A stretch of 62,091 nt of DNA, taken from assembly GCA_017889725.1 (NCBI GenBank), contig JAGGAE010000005.1, forward strand, positions 1 to 62,091, in the 5' to 3' direction. Origin of the DNA: Bacillota bacterium. Lineage in GTDB: Bacteria; Bacillota; Negativicutes; Sporomusales; CTSoil-080. The position numbers and the translations under genes were made by a program. A model generated the notes under the pieces. It was not told the origin of the DNA, ran no database searches, and saw only the letters and a program-made list of their open reading frames with translations. Below are positions 18,273 through 32,676 of this stretch, piece by piece. Position 1 is the stretch's first letter. Each line of letters opens with the position of its first letter.

Positions 18273-19583
18273 TTAGTTATTATCGGGCCGCCCTACCGCT
18301 CGGTACGCTATATCCTTACGGTAGTGAACCTCTTCGAAATGAATTCTTTTTACAGCCGAATACGCCTTGTTCAATGCCTCCTGAATAGAAGCTCCGAGTC
18401 CGGTAACTCCCAAAACCCGTCCGCCGCTTGTAATGATATCTTGACCTCTGGCAGATGTACCTGCATGAAAAACAACTGCATTCTCCGACTCCGCCTCGCT
18501 AACACCTGTAATCACTTTGCCTTTCTGATAATCGCCGGGGTAACCGCCGGATGCCATAACGACACAAACCGCCGCATCATTTTTCCAAGTGACGGTACTA
18601 TCTTTAAGCGTGCCGTCAATACAAGCCTCCATAATATAAGTAAGGTCACTATCCAGCAAAGGCAGTACAACCTGCGTTTCCGGATCACCGAAGCGGGCAT
18701 TGAATTCTACTACCTTAGGACCATTCTCCGTTATCATTAATCCAGCATAAATGCATCCCTGGTATAGACAGTTCTCCTGCCGCAAAGCATCTGCCATTGG
18801 CTGAAGAATGCGCTCAACTACTTCGGTGAGAAGCGTAGGGGTTATGATCGGTGCCGGGGCGTATGCGCCCATACCGCCGGTATTCGGACCCCGATCCTGA
18901 TCAAAAACCCGCTTATGATCCTGTGCGGCAAGCATCGGCACAACGGTTTTCCCATCAGTAAACGCCAGTAAAGAGGCTTCTTCCCCTGACATAAATTCTT
19001 CCACAACCACTTGGGCTCCTGCATTACCGAACGCTTGATCACACATAATCATATCCACCGCGCTCGTGGCTTCTTCCGTCGTCATAGCAACAACTACACC
19101 TTTTCCCGCAGCCAAGCCATCTGCTTTGACGACAATCGGCGCACCCTCTTTTTCTATGTAGGCTTTAGCCTTATCCGCATCTGTGAATACCGCATATTTC
19201 GCCGTAGGTATCCCGTATTTCCGCATCAAATCTTTGGCAAATGTTTTTGATCCTTCAAGTTGGGCTGCTTTTTTATCCGGTCCGAAAATTTTAAGACCGT
19301 TAGCGGTAAACAAATCAACAATTCCCTCCGTCAAAGGACCTTCTGGCCCTACAACGGTTAAATCAATTTTCTTATCAATAGCTAACTGACACAAACCCTG
19401 TAGATCTGAAACCGGTACGGGAACACATTCTGCCAGCTTACCAATCCCTGGATTGCCCGGAGCACAATAGATTTTTGTCACTCTCGGACTTTGAGCCAGT
19501 TTCCAGACAAGGGCATGTTCCCTTCCGCCACCGCCAATTACCAAAATACGCAAAATATCACCCCATTCTAACCTAGAAACCAA
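18273..19583 (-). CDS. purD: phosphoribosylamine--glycine ligase
   Basis: ILVIGGGGREHALVWKLAQSPRV; FNARFGDPETQVVLPLL. Confidence 0.97.
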   Translation of the reverse strand: MVSRLEWGDILRILVIGGGGREHALVWKLAQSPRVTKIYCAPGNPGIGKLAECVPVPVSDLQGLCQLAIDKKIDLTVVGPEGPLTEGIVDLFTANGLKIFGPDKKAAQLEGSKTFAKDLMRKYGIPTAKYAVFTDADKAKAYIEKEGAPIVVKADGLAAGKGVVVAMTTEEATSAVDMIMCDQAFGNAGAQVVVEEFMSGEEASLLAFTDGKTVVPMLAAQDHKRVFDQDRGPNTGGMGAYAPAPIITPTLLTEVVERILQPMADALRQENCLYQGCIYAGLMITENGPKVVEFNARFGDPETQVVLPLLDSDLTYIMEACIDGTLKDSTVTWKNDAAVCVVMASGGYPGDYQKGKVITGVSEAESENAVVFHAGTSARGQDIITSGGRVLGVTGLGASIQEALNKAYSAVKRIHFEEVHYRKDIAYRAVGRPDNN

Positions 19584-19590
19584 CTACGAC

Positions 19591-21129
19591 TTAATGTTTA
19601 AAATGCCTCATACCAGTAAAAACCATAGCAATTCCATGCTCATTCGCAGCAACGATTGATTCTTCATCACGAATTGATCCTCCAGGCTGGATAATCGCGG
19701 TCACACCAGCCTTAGCCGCAGTATCAATGGTATCCCTAAAGGGGAAATAAGCATCAGAAGCCAGTACTGCCCCAACCGCTTTATCGCCGGCCTGTTCCAG
19801 CGCAATCTTTGCCGCCCCGACCCGGTTCATTTGACCTGCCCCCACTCCCAGGGTCATATGGTTGCCTGCGACAACAATAGCGTTAGACTTAACATGTTTT
19901 ACCACCTTCCACGCCAATAACAGCTGCTCCCATTCATCGGCACTCGGCGTACGATTCGTTACAATTTTCATGTCATCAGGCTTCGTATCCTTTGCGTCTG
20001 CATCCTGCACCAGAAGACCACCGGAAATTTTCTTCATATCCAACGCAGCCTGGTCCAGAGCAAACTCTGCTGCAAGCAGCCGGACATTTTTCTTTTTCGT
20101 CAACACTGCTAAAGCTTCTTCACTAAAGGATGGCGCAATCACTGCCTCCACAAATAGGCCGCTCATCTTCTCCGCTGTTTCGTTGTCGACGGGTCGATTG
20201 AGTGCTATGATGCCGCCATAGGCCGAAACAGGATCGGCCTCATAGGCCTTACTGTAGGCCTGACTAATGGCTGCTCCGATTCCCGTACCACACGGATTAG
20301 TGTGTTTAATAATGGCGGCTGCTGGTTCGGTAAAGTCATTAACAATAGCATACGCGGATTCCAAATCTACCAAATTATTAAAGGACAGTTCTTTGCCGTG
20401 CAGCTGGCGGGCTGTGGCTATACCGGGATTTGTAACATATTTTTCCCTGTAAAAAGCCGCCTGCTGATGAGGATTTTCACCATACCTTAAATCCTCCACT
20501 TTCTCATACACCAAATGTAGCGACTCTTTAAAACGTCCTTCCCCTGTCTGTTCAGCCAGATAACTGCTAATATATGCGTCATACTCAGCAGTATGATTAA
20601 AAGCTTCACGAGCAAGATTCATGCGCATGGCATGCGAAATTTCGCCCTCCTTGTCCAATTGTTCTAGCACTGTATTGTACCTTGCGGGATTAACTACAAC
20701 CGTAACAAAAGCAAAATTCTTAGCAGCCGCGCGAATCATCGCCGGCCCGCCGATATCTATATTTTCTACCGCCTCCGCCAAAGTAACACCCGGTTTGGCT
20801 ACCGTTTGGCGGAAGGGGTATAAATTAACTACGACCATATCAATACCACGAATATTATGCTCTTCCATGGCTTTTCTGTGTTCCTCATTATCACGGACCG
20901 CTAAAATACCGCCATGAATATAAGGGTTGAGCGTTTTAACCCGGCCATCCATAATTTCTGGAAATCCGGTTAGTTCACTGACATAAATGACAGGAATACC
21001 CGCTTCCCGCAGCACCTTCATCGTGCCGCCGGTTGAAATAATTTCCACTCCCTGTATGGAGAGGGCACGGGCAAACTCCACTACTCCGGTCTTATCTGAC
21101 ACACTGATAAGTGCCCGTTTAATTTTCAT
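19591..21129 (-). CDS. purH: AICAR formyltransferase/IMP cyclohydrolase
   Basis: RALISVSDKTGVVEFA; LRYGENPHQQAAFY; DAYFPFRDTID. Confidence 0.97.
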   Translation of the reverse strand: MKIKRALISVSDKTGVVEFARALSIQGVEIISTGGTMKVLREAGIPVIYVSELTGFPEIMDGRVKTLNPYIHGGILAVRDNEEHRKAMEEHNIRGIDMVVVNLYPFRQTVAKPGVTLAEAVENIDIGGPAMIRAAAKNFAFVTVVVNPARYNTVLEQLDKEGEISHAMRMNLAREAFNHTAEYDAYISSYLAEQTGEGRFKESLHLVYEKVEDLRYGENPHQQAAFYREKYVTNPGIATARQLHGKELSFNNLVDLESAYAIVNDFTEPAAAIIKHTNPCGTGIGAAISQAYSKAYEADPVSAYGGIIALNRPVDNETAEKMSGLFVEAVIAPSFSEEALAVLTKKKNVRLLAAEFALDQAALDMKKISGGLLVQDADAKDTKPDDMKIVTNRTPSADEWEQLLLAWKVVKHVKSNAIVVAGNHMTLGVGAGQMNRVGAAKIALEQAGDKAVGAVLASDAYFPFRDTIDTAAKAGVTAIIQPGGSIRDEESIVAANEHGIAMVFTGMRHFKH

Positions 21130-21140
21130 AACATAATCAC

Positions 21141-21767
21141 CTACTTTACATTCTCGTCCGTAATTACCACTTGACGGCCATTTAGAGTTAGCCGACCCTT
21201 ACAGTAAAGACTAATAGCCCGGGGATAGAGAACGTGTTCCACCTCTAAAATACGGGCCGCCAACGTTTCAGCCGTATCCGAACTTGCTACTGGCACAGCC
21301 TGCTGCAATATAATCGGACCTGAATCCATGCCTTCATCCACAAAATGAACGGTACAGCCAGACATTTTAACTCCGTACTCTATCGCTTGCTTTTGTGCAT
21401 TTAGCCCTGGAAAAGATGGCAAAAGTGCAGGATGTATATTCATAATTTTCCCTGGATAGGCGCTGATAAAATCGCTGCCTAACAGCCTCATGAAACCGGC
21501 CAGAACCACAAGTTCAACATTATGCTCACAAAGCGTATTGACAAGTGCTTCTTCAAATTGTCTTTTTGTAGCGAAATCCTTCCGTTCAATTACCTCTGTG
21601 GCAATCCCCAACCCTTTTACTCTCTGGAGAGCAAAGGCGTCCTTCTTGTCACTGATAACAACACCGATTTTCGCGTTAATCTTTCCTTCTCGAATGGCAT
21701 CCAAAATAGCCTGGAGATTGCTGCCCCTGCCTGATACAAGCACACCTAACACCGTACTACTCACCAA
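21141..21767 (-). CDS. purN: phosphoribosylglycinamide formyltransferase
   Basis: [39 protein letters not shown]. Confidence 0.97.
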
Positions 21768-22809
21768 AGACTCCTCCCCGCAGCTTCACCAATCCGGAGC
21801 CTGCGGTTACTTGACCGATTCGATAGCATGCTTCCCCGTTAGATGCAAAATGTTGTTCTACCCGCTCAGCTTCCTCGGGAGATACCACCAAAATCATCCC
21901 AATCCCCATATTGAATGTGCGATACATCTCCGGCCAAGACACATTACCCCATTGCTGCAAAAGATCGAAAATAGGCGGTTTAGGCCATGCCGTACTGTCA
22001 ACTTCCACAGCGCAGCCTTCCGGCAGGGCGCGGGGAATATTGTCATAAAAACCGCCACCGGTAATATGCACCATCCCTCGGACAGAAAACTTTTCAATAA
22101 CAGGTAAACAAACCTTGGGATACAGCCTGGTTGGCACCATCAGTTCCTCGCCGATTGTTCTGCCAAGCTCATTAATATATCTGTCCGCGGTCAACTTTGC
22201 AGCTTCAAAACAAATCTTGCGTACCAGCGAAAACCCGTTCGAATGGAGTCCGGAAGACGGAAGACCCAGGAGAACATCTCCCGGTACAATATTCTGTCCG
22301 GTAATTAGCTTAGACTTTTCGGCAATACCGACGGAAAATCCGGCAATATCATATTCCCCGTCCGAATAAAACCCGGCCATTTCCGCTGTTTCGCCTCCTA
22401 TAAGCGAACAGCCTGACTCGCTGCACGCTTTAGCTACCCCGCTGACAATCGTCGCTACCTTTTCCGGTTCTAGCTTACCTACTGCCAGATAGTCCAGGAA
22501 AAACAAAGGTTCCGCCCCTTGTACCAGTATATCATTGACACACATGGCTACGGCATCCTGTCCAATAGTGTCATGTTTGTCAAGCATGAACGCAAGCTTA
22601 AGTTTTGTGCCAACACCATCCGTGCCACTTACTAATACCGGTTCTTTATACTTTGCCGCATTAAGTGCAAATAATCCTCCAAAGCCTCCGATATCCCCAA
22701 GAACCTCTGGTCGGTAAGTTGCTTTCACATGCCCCTTCATAAGTTCCACCGCTTTATTACCGGCATCTACATCGACACCAGCCTGGCGGTACGTTAGACC
22801 GTCTCCCAT
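21757..22809 (-). CDS. purM: phosphoribosylformylglycinamidine cyclo-ligase
   Basis: [46 protein letters not shown]. Confidence 0.97.
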
Positions 22810-24269
22810 TAGCTCTCACCGCCTCCCCTTTTTTCACAAGCCGCCTCAAATACATATTTATTATTGTTTAAATCCTCGCAAGGTACTCCCGCCGGATAGT
22901 CTCCATTAAAGCAGGCATAACACATCTGCCCACAGGGAATATGGGGAACTGCGTTTTTCAACCCTTCCAAAGATAAATAGGTTAAAGAATCAGCGCCAAT
23001 ATATCGGCGAATTTCCTCTATCGTTTTCATCGAGGCAACAAGTTCTTTCCGGGCGGCAGTATCAATGCCGTAATAACAAGGGTACATGATCGGCGGCGAG
23101 CTTACACACATATGCACCGCCGTAGCTCCCGCCTCTTTGAGCATCCGAACAATTTTACCGCTGGTAGTTCCACGAACAATCGAGTCATCTACCATGACAA
23201 CCGATTTTCCGGCAACTACCGCCCGATTGGCGTTTAGCTTTAGGCGTACACTGGTATCACGTTTTTTCTGTTCCGGCTGAATAAACGTCCGTCCAATATA
23301 ACGGTTCTTTATCAGTCCTTCGGCAAACGGGATGCCGCTTTCGTGGGAAAAACCCACCGCTGCAGTAGTACCCGAATCCGGCACAGAAATTACCACGTCA
23401 GCTTTTGCCCCACTCTCCCTGGCCAACTGGCGCCCCATGGCAAACCGGGCGTTATACACGCTTTGTCCATCAATAGAGCTGTCCGGACGGGCGAAATAGA
23501 TATATTCAAACACACACAAGGCCTGCGGCCCCTCGGACGCAAACCGCCGTGAAACCAGACCGTCTTTATCAGCGATCACCATTTCACCAGGTTCAACATC
23601 TCTGACAAATTCTGCCCCGACCGTGTCCAGCGCGCACGATTCCGAGGCCATCACCCAGCCGTCATGTAATTTGCCTATGCATAGCGGACGAAAGCCATTA
23701 GGGTCACGCACACCAATGAGTTTATTTTCGGTCATAATTAGTAAACAGTACGCTCCCTCAACCTGAGACAGGCTTTCCCCAATCTTATCTTCAATACTCT
23801 TTTGCGTCGAACGGGCAATAAGATTAACAATTACTTCGCTGTCGATAGAGGTCTGAAATACACTCCCCTTTTCTTCCAGCATAGCCCTTACCTCACGAGC
23901 GTTTGTCAAATTTCCGTTGTGAGCCAGACTAATCCGCCCTCCGGAATAATTCACCATCAACGGCTGCGTGTTTGCTAACAGACTTGAACCCGTTGTTGAA
24001 TACCGTACATGCCCAATGGAAATAGTTGCCCCGTCCATGGTTGGCAACCCTTTGCGAAATACCTCGTTTACCAGTCCCATTCCCCGTTCGACTTCCATTC
24101 TGCAACCGTCAGTTAAGGCAATGCCTGCACTTTCCTGTCCACGGTGTTGCAATGCGTAAAGCCCCCAATAGGTATTCAAGGCAACGTCATCCTGTCGGGA
24201 AAGAATTCCGAAAATACCGCATTCCTCACGCGGCTTATCCATATCAAAATCAAAATGCACGCAGTCCAC
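22809..24269 (-). CDS. purF: amidophosphoribosyltransferase
   Basis: [56 protein letters not shown]. Confidence 0.97.
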
Positions 24270-24289
24270 CCCTCCCAGGAATTTCTATT

Positions 24290-25006
24290 TTAGCAAACTT
24301 CACCGGTAAGACGTCTCAGCACCTCTTTATAGGCAGCTTCTACATCACCAAGGTCACGGCGAAATCTGTCTTTATCTAATTTTTGACCGGTTTCAGTATC
24401 CCAAAAACGACAAGTATCCGGCGAAATTTCATCACCCAATAAAAGTTCACCGTTGTGAATACCGAACTCTAATTTAAAGTCAATAAGCTCAACCTTTTTA
24501 CCCTTTAAAAAAGTACTAAGAATAGAATTAATCTTAAGGCCCCAATCTTTGAGCGCTTTCATTTGTTCATCGGTTGCCAGATTGAGAACTCTTGCATGAT
24601 CCTCGTTAATCAGAGGATCTCCCAGCGCATCATCTTTATAATAAAATTCCACAATAGGTAACGGCAATTTCCGTCCTTCTTCCCAGCCAATCCGTTTCGC
24701 CAGACTACCGGCAGCAATATTTCGAACAACCACTTCAATTTGCAAAATTTCCAGTTTCTTAACCAACATCTCACGGTCACTTACAATCCGCACAAAATGA
24801 TTTGGTACACCAGCTTTCGTCAGCATTTCAAAAAAGAAAGCCGATATCTTGTTGTTCAGAATACCTTTACTATGGATCGTTCCTTTTTTCTCACCATTAA
24901 ATGCCGTAGCATCATCTTTGTAATACACCAAATATTCATTCGGGTTATCAGTTGCATAAACCTTTTTAGCTTTGCCTTCGTACAACGCTTCTTTCATTTT
25001 CATCAC
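24290..25006 (-). CDS. purC: SAICAR synthetase
   Basis: [49 protein letters not shown]. Confidence 0.97.
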
Positions 25007-25515
25007 TCCTTAGATTTTTCCAGTAATTTTGCTTCTACTTTTTCTGCCTTGGCTTCGACCTCAGCAGCCATTGTCTGGCGATACAGAGTAAGCCGTTTTG
25101 CTAATTCCGAATTACCGGACGCAATTATTTGAGCCGCAAATATAGCGGCATTTTTCGCCCCATTAATCGCCATAGTGGCCACTGGTATGCCCGACGGCAT
25201 CTGGACAATACTGAGAAGTGCATCCAATCCTCCTAGCGAGGTACTGTTTATCGGTACCCCTATAACCGGTAGCAAAGTAAAGCTGGCTACAACCCCCGGT
25301 AAATGAGCCGCAGCTCCGGCGGCGGCTATAATTACATTAAACCCTTGCCCGGCGGCGTCAGCAACAAATTGGTGAACCTTATCAGGAGTTCGATGCGCCG
25401 AAGCAACTACCACTTTACAGCCTATACCAAATTCAGCGAGGGTTTTTATCGCCGGTTCCATTATTGGTAAATCAGAATCACTGCCCATAATAATAGCAAC
25501 TTTCACAATCCCCAA
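25003..25515 (-). CDS. purE: 5-(carboxyamino)imidazole ribonucleotide mutase
   Basis: [39 protein letters not shown]. Confidence 0.97.
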
Positions 25516-25615: not shown

Positions 25616-26989
25616 TTAGCCTTCAGCTAAAAAGATATACCTTGCAACTACTAATACTGCCAGAACGTACACAATCCAATGCACATCGCGACCACGACCA
25701 CTGACCAGCTTTAAAAGCGGGTAAAAGACCAAACCGGCCGATACCCCATTGGCAATGCTGTAGGTAAACGGCATAAGTGCCATTGTCAAGAACGCCGGCA
25801 AAGCTTCTGTAAAGTCGCCAAAATCAATATTTCTAACCGATTCCATCATCAGCGCTCCCACAATAATGAGCGCCGGTGCGGTGGCCGCATCAGGAATAAG
25901 ACTTGCCAATGGCGAGAAGAACAAAGCGAGTATGAACAAGATTCCGCACACTACCGCCGTCAGGCCGGTACGTCCGCCTTCTCCAATACCGGCGGTACTT
26001 TCCACAAATGCGGTAATGGTGCTCGTGCCGAGCATGGCTCCTAAGCTAACCCCGGTAGCATCTACCAACATAGCCTTGCCAATGCCGGGAAATTTTCCGT
26101 CTTTATCCATAAGACCGGCTTTCGTCGCCGTTCCCACTAAGGTACCCATAGTATCGAATAATTCTACAAAAGTAAAAGTAAAGATGATAGTCATAAGACC
26201 CATATTAATAGCCCCGGGAATATCCAACTGCAAAAATGCATTTCTGCTGAAATCCGGTACTGCCACCGGACTAAAGCCTTGTGGAACATGAACAATTCCC
26301 ATAAAAATACCAAGAATGGTGGTAAGTAAAATACCCCATAACATAGCACCTTTAACCCGCCATGCCATAAGCACGCAAATACAGATCAGTCCGAATACTG
26401 CCAGTAGTATGTCTTTATTTGCGAAGTCACCCATACCTAAGATGGTTTCAAAGCTAAGCGGAGTAGCATGACCGTTAGTGGCTACCAGTTTTTCCAACGT
26501 AGGCGGAATCAATGACAACTTAATGCTCATGATCCCGGACAATTTCAGACCTATAATTGTAATGAACAATCCAATACCGACACTAATAGCACTTTTCAAT
26601 GAAGCCGGAATGCCTTCAACCAACAGCTGGCGCACTTGAGTTACAGTAAGTAAAATAAAAATCAGACCGGAAATAAATACCGCACCCAGTGCAACCTGCC
26701 AGGATACACCCATACCAATTACTACAGTGAAAGCATAAAATGCATTCAGACCCATACCCGGAGCCAACGAAATTGGGTAGTTTACAAATACCCCCATCGC
26801 CATGGTAACTAATCCGGCGCCAAGTGCTGTTGCAATGAGTACAGCATTCTTGTCCATCCCTGCCGCTCCAAGAACACTTGGATTGACAAAAAGTATGTAC
26901 GCCATAGTCATAAAGGTCGTAATACCGGCAAAGACCTCAGTTTTGACATCAGTTTTCCGCGCGGTAAGCGCAAAATATTTATCTAGCAT
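25616..26989 (-). CDS. NCS2 (AzgA-like) purine permease
   Basis: VFAGITTFMTMAYILFVNPSVLG; APGMGLNAFYAF; TITAFVESTAGIGEGGRTGLTAV. Confidence 0.94.
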   Translation of the reverse strand: MLDKYFALTARKTDVKTEVFAGITTFMTMAYILFVNPSVLGAAGMDKNAVLIATALGAGLVTMAMGVFVNYPISLAPGMGLNAFYAFTVVIGMGVSWQVALGAVFISGLIFILLTVTQVRQLLVEGIPASLKSAISVGIGLFITIIGLKLSGIMSIKLSLIPPTLEKLVATNGHATPLSFETILGMGDFANKDILLAVFGLICICVLMAWRVKGAMLWGILLTTILGIFMGIVHVPQGFSPVAVPDFSRNAFLQLDIPGAINMGLMTIIFTFTFVELFDTMGTLVGTATKAGLMDKDGKFPGIGKAMLVDATGVSLGAMLGTSTITAFVESTAGIGEGGRTGLTAVVCGILFILALFFSPLASLIPDAATAPALIIVGALMMESVRNIDFGDFTEALPAFLTMALMPFTYSIANGVSAGLVFYPLLKLVSGRGRDVHWIVYVLAVLVVARYIFLAEG

Positions 26990-27060: not shown

Positions 27061-27130
27061 TTAAAATAGAATTAGCCCAGGCAGGGAAATTCCTTCTCGT
27101 AAGTGAGCGAAACCTCCCCGCCCGGGCTTT
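27061..27130 (-). terminator. intrinsic terminator of the riboswitch leader
   Basis: Minus strand GCCCGGGCGGGGAGG...TTTCCCTGCCTGGGCTAATTCTATTTT. Confidence 0.8.
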
Positions 27131-27235
27131 TGTCCCATCGGTGTAGTGCTACTGGGTAACACCTGTACCACTCGGTCACGACCATAGCAAAGAATAAAGC
27201 CCCTTTGTCTATGTGGAACCCTAGGTACACTTTCA
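27128..27235 (-). ncRNA. PRPP riboswitch (ykkC subtype 2b-like), second aptamer of a tandem
   Basis: Minus strand GTGAAAGTGTACCTAGGGTTCCA...GACCGAGTGGTACAGGTGTTACC...ACTACACCGATGGGACAAAAGCCCGGG; ykkC-like blocks directly 3' of a guanine aptamer and upstream of purine genes. 5' boundary approximate. Confidence 0.82.
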
Positions 27236-27302
27236 CTCGTAGTCAGGTACTTTACGGGCACCCGGTAGAGACTCTTGAGCCATATCCTCAAAATTATACG
27301 AG
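27236..27302 (-). ncRNA. purine (guanine-class) riboswitch aptamer
   Basis: Minus strand CTCGTATAATTTTGAGGATATGGCTCAAGAGTCTCTACCGGGTGCCCGTAAAGTACCTGACTACGAG: P1 CTCGTA/TACGAG, TATAAT, GATATGG, TCTCTACC and GACTAC with C at the specificity position. Confidence 0.95.
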
Positions 27303-27326
27303 CACTATAAAACTTTTTTCATCATT

Positions 27327-27355
27327 ATTTTATCAGGGAGCAGCCATCCAGTCAA
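27327..27355 (-). promoter_or_regulatory. promoter for the tandem riboswitch leader
   Basis: Minus strand TTGACT - 17 nt - TAAAAT. Confidence 0.65.
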
Positions 27356-31641: not shown

Positions 31642-31760
31642 ATCCCGTAAAATCAGGACAAGACATCCTCTTGCATGATAAAATATACAAATGATTAACA
31701 TTACAGGGCGTCAAAAAGCGTCCTGTTTCTTTGTATTTTTTCTAGCAGGAGATGGATGAT

Positions 31761-32492
31761 ATGAGTAATGTTTTGTCTTTGCCTCAATTAAACTTTCTAT
31801 TTAGCTACAACCTCCCTGAACGCCAAGTTTTACTTGTTGCCGGCGGTCGGCCTCCTGCCTCCTCGTGGCTTGCAGCCGCCGCCGGGTCTTTCACTGTTTG
31901 GGGAGTGGATAGCGGAGTAGATAGTTTAAAAAACAGTGATGTTCAACCGGTTGCGGTAATCGGGGACGGCGATAGCGCCACACCAGCAGCCTGGGAATGG
32001 GCAAAATCATTGGGCATTCCCGTAGAAATTCATCCGCCTGAAAAAGATTTAACCGACCTCCAACTTGCTTTACAAAGAACCGGAGAATTATATGAGCAAG
32101 CCGCAGTTATTGTTACTGGAGTTTGGGGCGGGCGATTTGACCATACCTTCAGCAATATTTATTCCTTACTGGGCAGTAAGACGTTCGGCCTTGCCCCCTG
32201 CTGTGCTGCCGACGACAAAGAGATTTTAGTGTTACTCCACGGCCCTGACCGTGTTAATATTCAGCTTAAACACCAGCCTTCGGCAGTTTCCTTATTACCC
32301 CTGTCTGACTGTTCAGGCGTAACCATTACCGGAGTTCGCTGGCCTTTAAATAAAGTTACGCTGAGCACAGGCTTACCATACGCAATTAGCAATAGGCCGA
32401 CAACGGATAAAACTCGGTTATCTGTTTCTTTAGACCACGGCTGTCTGGGTATTTACCTATGCTGGGACGACAATGAACTATCTAATTTATAA
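31761..32492 (+). CDS. thiamine diphosphokinase
   Basis: VDSGVDSLKNSDVQPVAVIGDGDSA...HPPEKDLTDLQLAL...VTGVWGGRFDHTFSNI. Confidence 0.87.
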   Translation: MSNVLSLPQLNFLFSYNLPERQVLLVAGGRPPASSWLAAAAGSFTVWGVDSGVDSLKNSDVQPVAVIGDGDSATPAAWEWAKSLGIPVEIHPPEKDLTDLQLALQRTGELYEQAAVIVTGVWGGRFDHTFSNIYSLLGSKTFGLAPCCAADDKEILVLLHGPDRVNIQLKHQPSAVSLLPLSDCSGVTITGVRWPLNKVTLSTGLPYAISNRPTTDKTRLSVSLDHGCLGIYLCWDDNELSNL

Positions 32493-32548
32493 ATTTTACT
32501 GGTAAACCAGAAAATAAACTGTTATAATAAACGAAAATAAAAATTCAT

Positions 32549-32633
32549 TGTGCTAGGGGTGCCATAAGGCTGAGAGATGAACTATTTCATTAACCCTTCA
32601 CCTGATCTGGATAATACCAGCGTAGGGAAGCGA
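32549..32633 (+). ncRNA. TPP riboswitch (THI element)
   Basis: CTAGGGGTGCC...GGCTGAGAGATG...ACCCTTCACCTGATCTGGATAATACCAGCGTAGGGAAG. Confidence 0.97.
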
Positions 32634-32643
32634 CATTAAAAAA

Positions 32644-32676
32644 CACCGCACGCCCGTTCTGGGCCTGCGGTATTTT
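32644..32676 (+). terminator. riboswitch-associated terminator
   Basis: ACCGCACGCCCGTTCTGGGCCTGCGGTATTTT. Confidence 0.8.

Follow-up and report, generated by a model that had tools for sequence, protein, structure and literature searches.

The window analysed here, a whole stretch of 62,091 nucleotides from a Sporomusa-related MAG of the Negativicutes, carries on the minus strand of its contig a tandem riboswitch leader that is very probably a transcription-attenuating guanine-PRPP riboswitch operating by strand exchange. The class is already described, with 127 examples in Sherlock et al. 2018 (PMC5912903) and 192 by 2022 (PMC9481103), and the window holds, as judged from sequence, a well-formed further member of it. 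What appears to be new here, and a useful addition, is the family-wide co-variation of two competing helices: in about 100 leaders, one strand is read as serving both the guanine P1 and the PRPP P0, and the P0 partner also lies in the terminator. An earlier reading of the same DNA, made without database searches (the sequence-only reading), had observed this leader; we confirmed the observation, and all the elements that it described were found in their places.

The guanine-class purine aptamer lies at 27220-27321 of the minus strand and is recognised by the Rfam covariance search with 87.8 bits (RF00167; E 5e-16, cut-off 37). It had been claimed to be complete, and it is: P1 is formed by CTCGTA (27302-27297) paired with TACGAG (27241-27236), two strands that co-vary; the loops GATATGG and CCGTAAA and the junction TCTCTACC are present; and the specificity position is a C at 27242 (GAC-TAC), pointing to guanine rather than adenine. 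The purine aptamer is likewise present in 102 tandem leaders. Upstream of it we predict a sigma-A promoter at 27327-27355 of the minus strand (TTGACT-17-TAAAAT) from its match to the consensus, with which 10 of 12 positions agree, a TG preceding the -10. The extent first given for the whole element, 27061-27302, was right as to place and too short upstream, where the limit should reach this promoter (27355-27327). The second, ykkC-like aptamer occupies 27105-27235 of the same strand and comprises P1, P2, P3 and P0; its P1 starts 6 nt beyond the last base of the guanine P1, in line with the 5-7 nt published for this spacing. That a ykkC aptamer follows was correctly seen; that it does so with no spacer turned out to be too weak a wording, as both aptamers share nucleotides 27238-27236. 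A single intrinsic terminator, as had also been read, overlaps the end of the second aptamer (27063-27128, minus strand). Folding gives a stem at 27128-27074 and a U-rich tract at 27071-27063, and the hairpin has an MFE of -40.4 kcal/mol against a shuffle mean of -19.2 (z -6.55); a simple terminator scan did not pick it up, because of its internal loop and its weak U-tract TTCTATTTT. The terminator 5' arm contains the P0 3' strand TTTCGCTC (27105-27112, minus strand) and pairs 7 of its 8 bases in the window, and at least 4 of the 8 are paired in the terminator in 68 of 92 distinct leader hairpins.

We propose that these elements form a relay of four strands, the P1 5' arm, the shared strand, the P0 3' arm and the terminator 3' arm, in which the first pairing would be held by guanine and the second by PRPP, and the third would follow if the second is absent. 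Guanine binding would hold the guanine P1 and so keep the strand 27238-27231 from the PRPP P0; without P0, its 3' strand would join the terminator together with the P3 3' strand and the operon would be off. PRPP binding would stabilise P0 and P3, breaking P1 and denying both strands to the terminator, and would keep the operon on even with guanine present (an IMPLY gate, whose one off state has guanine present and PRPP absent). We infer the identity of the ligands and the IMPLY logic from the published studies of B. megaterium codA and T. mathranii; according to a 2022 review, the structural changes behind the tandem guanine-PRPP logic are not established (PMC9481103).

The exchange would turn on the strand TACGAGTGAAA (27231-27241, minus strand), of which 27241-27236 is the 3' arm of the guanine P1 and 27238-27231 the 5' arm of P0. 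GAG (27238-27236) is common to both helices, and the strictly shared segment is thus 3 nt in the window. P0 itself pairs GAGTGAAA with TTTCGCTC in 8 pairs, one of them U-G. In a swap test, partner strands in 40 distinct P1 5'/shared/P0 3' combinations were compared with exchanged ones over 20000 permutations, and each helix paired better with its native partner, giving z -4.0 for P0 and -5.6 for P1 with 0/20000 permutations each, and, with one combination per shared strand (n=20), 23/20000 for P0 and 6/20000 for P1, permutation counts that kinship among the leader sequences inflates. Compensatory change is seen in L009 and L032, where GAG becomes GTG with CTC becoming CAC in both P1 and P0, and Desulfotomaculum-type genomes have CACGTA / TACGTGGGAAA / TTTC(G or A)CACG. 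A G-C pair of P0 is replaced by A-U in L100 (CTCGTA / TACGAGTAAAA / TTTTGCTC), L058 showing the G-U intermediate; the shared strand and the P0 partner strand are shortened together in L022 and L083; and P1 is CTCATA / TATGAG in L182. The central P0 pair is standard in 58% and often a G-A mismatch outside the Negativicutes. An arrangement in which each aptamer acts on the one terminator independently of the other, without exchange of strand 27238-27231, would suit the brevity of the strictly shared segment and the in-line probing of B. megaterium, where each aptamer folds alone (PMC5912903). We nevertheless hold it to be improbable, since both helices formed on this strand co-vary, in B. megaterium the 5' end of the PRPP aptamer becomes looser with guanine (PMC5912903), the guanine P1 and P0 had already been predicted to be mutually exclusive in one species, T. 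mathranii (PMC6031431), and no terminator lies between the two aptamers. The co-variation across distinct leaders supports competition of the guanine P1 and the PRPP P0 for one strand, and would extend the prediction made for one species to a relay for the whole family, open to direct testing.

The second aptamer is assigned to the PRPP (ykkC 2b) type from its diagnostic bases. A covariance search, the check proposed in the sequence-only reading, nominally pointed to another ykkC class, the sole Rfam match being Guanidine-I (RF00442) at 27235-27117 with 48.9 bits, below the cut-off of 63; the subclass call itself stood on the diagnostic positions. No PRPP model was among the Rfam matches of the window leader, so the Rfam search cannot separate the ykkC subclasses, and because its match was to Guanidine-I only and below cut-off we read the class from the diagnostic bases. 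The subclasses are set apart by few bases: position 49 is A in guanidine-I and a pyrimidine in PRPP and ppGpp aptamers, and position 96 is G in PRPP and not G in ppGpp aptamers (PMC6031431). With the numbering taken from the primer sequences of that paper, in which position 96 is the second base after GCCC, the window aptamer has U at position 49 (27170) and G at position 96 (27122), and it carries ACACC, listed with the published PRPP markers. Among the tandem leaders, G96 and ACACC occur in 102/102 each and a pyrimidine at position 49 in 101/102, while A49 is found in 8/8 guanidine-I comparators from related genomes. The Guanidine-I riboswitch has the same ykkC core as the window (CTAGGGTTCC and ACAAAAGCCC) but has A49 and no P0, and neither the score nor U49 places the window aptamer within it. 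The tandem guanine-PRPP identity first proposed is thus supported by U49, G96, the P0 3' strand and the single terminator, and membership of the class is secure by sequence criteria. That the second aptamer binds some other ykkC ligand (ppGpp, a nucleoside diphosphate or guanidine) is highly improbable, for although so few bases separate the subclasses and Rfam gives no match but Guanidine-I, the published marker at position 49, here U, excludes guanidine-I, the PRPP-type G96 is invariant in the leaders and a purine operon lies downstream. The position after ACACC, considered as a discriminator between PRPP and ppGpp, was dropped once the primers of PMC6031431 had fixed the numbering.

Both systems from which the guanine-PRPP reading draws its logic resemble the window closely. 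The B. megaterium codA tandem (PMC5912903) has the same aptamer order, 5-7 nt between the P1 stems, purine genes and a single terminator overlapping the PRPP aptamer; the window differs from it in its host, a Negativicutes MAG, in having an NCS2 permease gene first, the commonest order among its relatives, and in an extra TACGAG copy in the terminator loop. The T. mathranii PRPP aptamer (Knappenberger et al. 2018, PMC6031431) likewise has P0, U/C49, G96 and A103-G104-G105, as well as the predicted mutual exclusion of the guanine P1 and P0. Its P0 3' strand continues with ...CACTCGTA, repeating the whole P1 5' strand, whereas that of the window ends at CTC and is followed by the TACGAG copy.

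The host genome contains two further ykkC elements (L003 and L004, on contigs 95 and 59), which are probably of the ppGpp type; beyond the P3 strand they are shorter, and the PRPP arrangement is therefore missing from them. Read from the proteins, one precedes a leuA-like (2-isopropylmalate synthase-like) gene, as is expected of ppGpp-type ykkC elements, and the other a phenylacetate-CoA-ligase-like gene, an unusual association for a ykkC RNA.

Folding of the lengthening window RNA, calculated at equilibrium with neither tertiary structure nor ligands in the model, predicts P1 at about 0.9 until the P0 strand emerges, then P0 at 0.89 for RNA ends of about 27095-27087, after which the terminator prevails; P0 exceeds 0.5 in 45 of the 102 leaders folded. 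The TACGAG in the terminator loop (element a', 27096-27101, minus strand) is an exact copy of the guanine P1 3' strand. While the RNA ends at about 27095-27087, pairing of the P1 5' strand with this copy is predicted at 0.95, and scrambling the copy in silico takes P0 from 0.89 to 0.04 in this decision window. In the lineage of the window, the loop TACGAG might therefore trap the released P1 5' strand and favour P0 for about 10 nt of transcription. This folding model suggests, tentatively and with some doubt on our part, that both P1 strands are exchanged in the order to which the window belongs, PRPP placing the 3' strand in P0 and the loop catching the freed 5' strand; if true, the trap would hold an ON intermediate over a short transcription stretch and fix which state the gate takes by default.

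Against this trap, and not against strand exchange as the main explanation, stands a plainer account, which is probably correct: the loop TACGAG would only supply the 3' strand of a small hairpin, CTC-GAG, at the terminator tip, its match to the P1 3' strand being a coincidence inherited in one order. The GAG of the copy does pair with CTC at the tip in the terminator fold. An exact copy is found in 11 of the 102 leaders, against 0.4-0.5 expected from shuffling, and all 11 belong to three families of the window's order; Sporomusa-type relatives are without it, and the loop copy shows no covariation, its partner CTCGTA being constant in all carriers. With a chance of about 0.5-3% per leader, it would be no great surprise if, among some 20 distinct forms, such a match had arisen once by coincidence in one lineage. 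The tip hairpin by itself accounts less well for the UAC before GAG, which is invariant in the carriers despite varying loop length and a PRPP-internal sequence down to 51% identical (median 65%), or for the loss of P0 on scrambling. The loop copy is in either case a specific, lineage-level variation open to testing. A trap for the P1 5' strand in every leader was rejected, the predicted trap pairing exceeding 0.5 in 22/102 leaders and the exact copy being present in 11. In Sporomusa-type leaders (L035, L049, L138-L140), the terminator 3' arm often has ATGCGA, which can pair with TCGTAT of P1 by way of a G-U pair and for which trap pairing is predicted at 0.3-0.8; ATGCGA may play a part analogous to that of the TACGAG copy, or may simply result from pairing with TTTCGC.

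Downstream of the leader, family models confirmed the gene order that had been read, an NCS2 permease gene followed by purE, C, F, M, N, H and D, all on the minus strand. The permease (25616-26989) is a purine permease of the AzgA/PbuG-like kind (PF00860; best PDB matches AZG1/AZG2), and the genes purE-purC-purF-purM-purN-purH-purD (18273-25515) match NCBIfam equivalogs above cut-off. No purL, purQ, purS, purB or purK is among the genes listed for this operon; the MAG is 65% complete, and these genes may sit elsewhere or be absent from the assembly. Of 104 pattern-matched loci, 66 begin with an NCS2 gene and 16 with purE, so the order in the window is the usual one.

Tandem leaders were found by pattern search in 27/399 genomes of the phylum and 42/301 of the class, a few of them spurious (e.g. 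L031), and in 73 contigs of a named collection that include Sporomusa, Pelosinus, Desulforamulus, Halanaerobiales MAGs and Brevibacillus; L031 and L052, pattern matches without a recognisable P1, were dropped. The relatives of the window are judged to belong to the order containing Sporomusa, and in its genus sibling (L150/L161) the leader is the same except that AACTAC replaces GACTAC. Some tandem leaders (L010, L012, L032, L043, L070 and L073; L011 and L063; L005, L007 and L101) precede uptake or salvage genes instead of de novo genes, encoding, as read from the proteins, BMP-type nucleoside-binding lipoproteins, adenine deaminase and purine nucleoside phosphorylase-like proteins. L182 (G408, contig 27), whose shared strand carries an additional base, is the second tandem leader of its genome and precedes a different permease-like protein. 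Elsewhere in the window, a TPP riboswitch (RF00059, 72.9 bits) lies at 32545-32645 on the plus strand, just downstream of a thiamin pyrophosphokinase gene (31752-32492).
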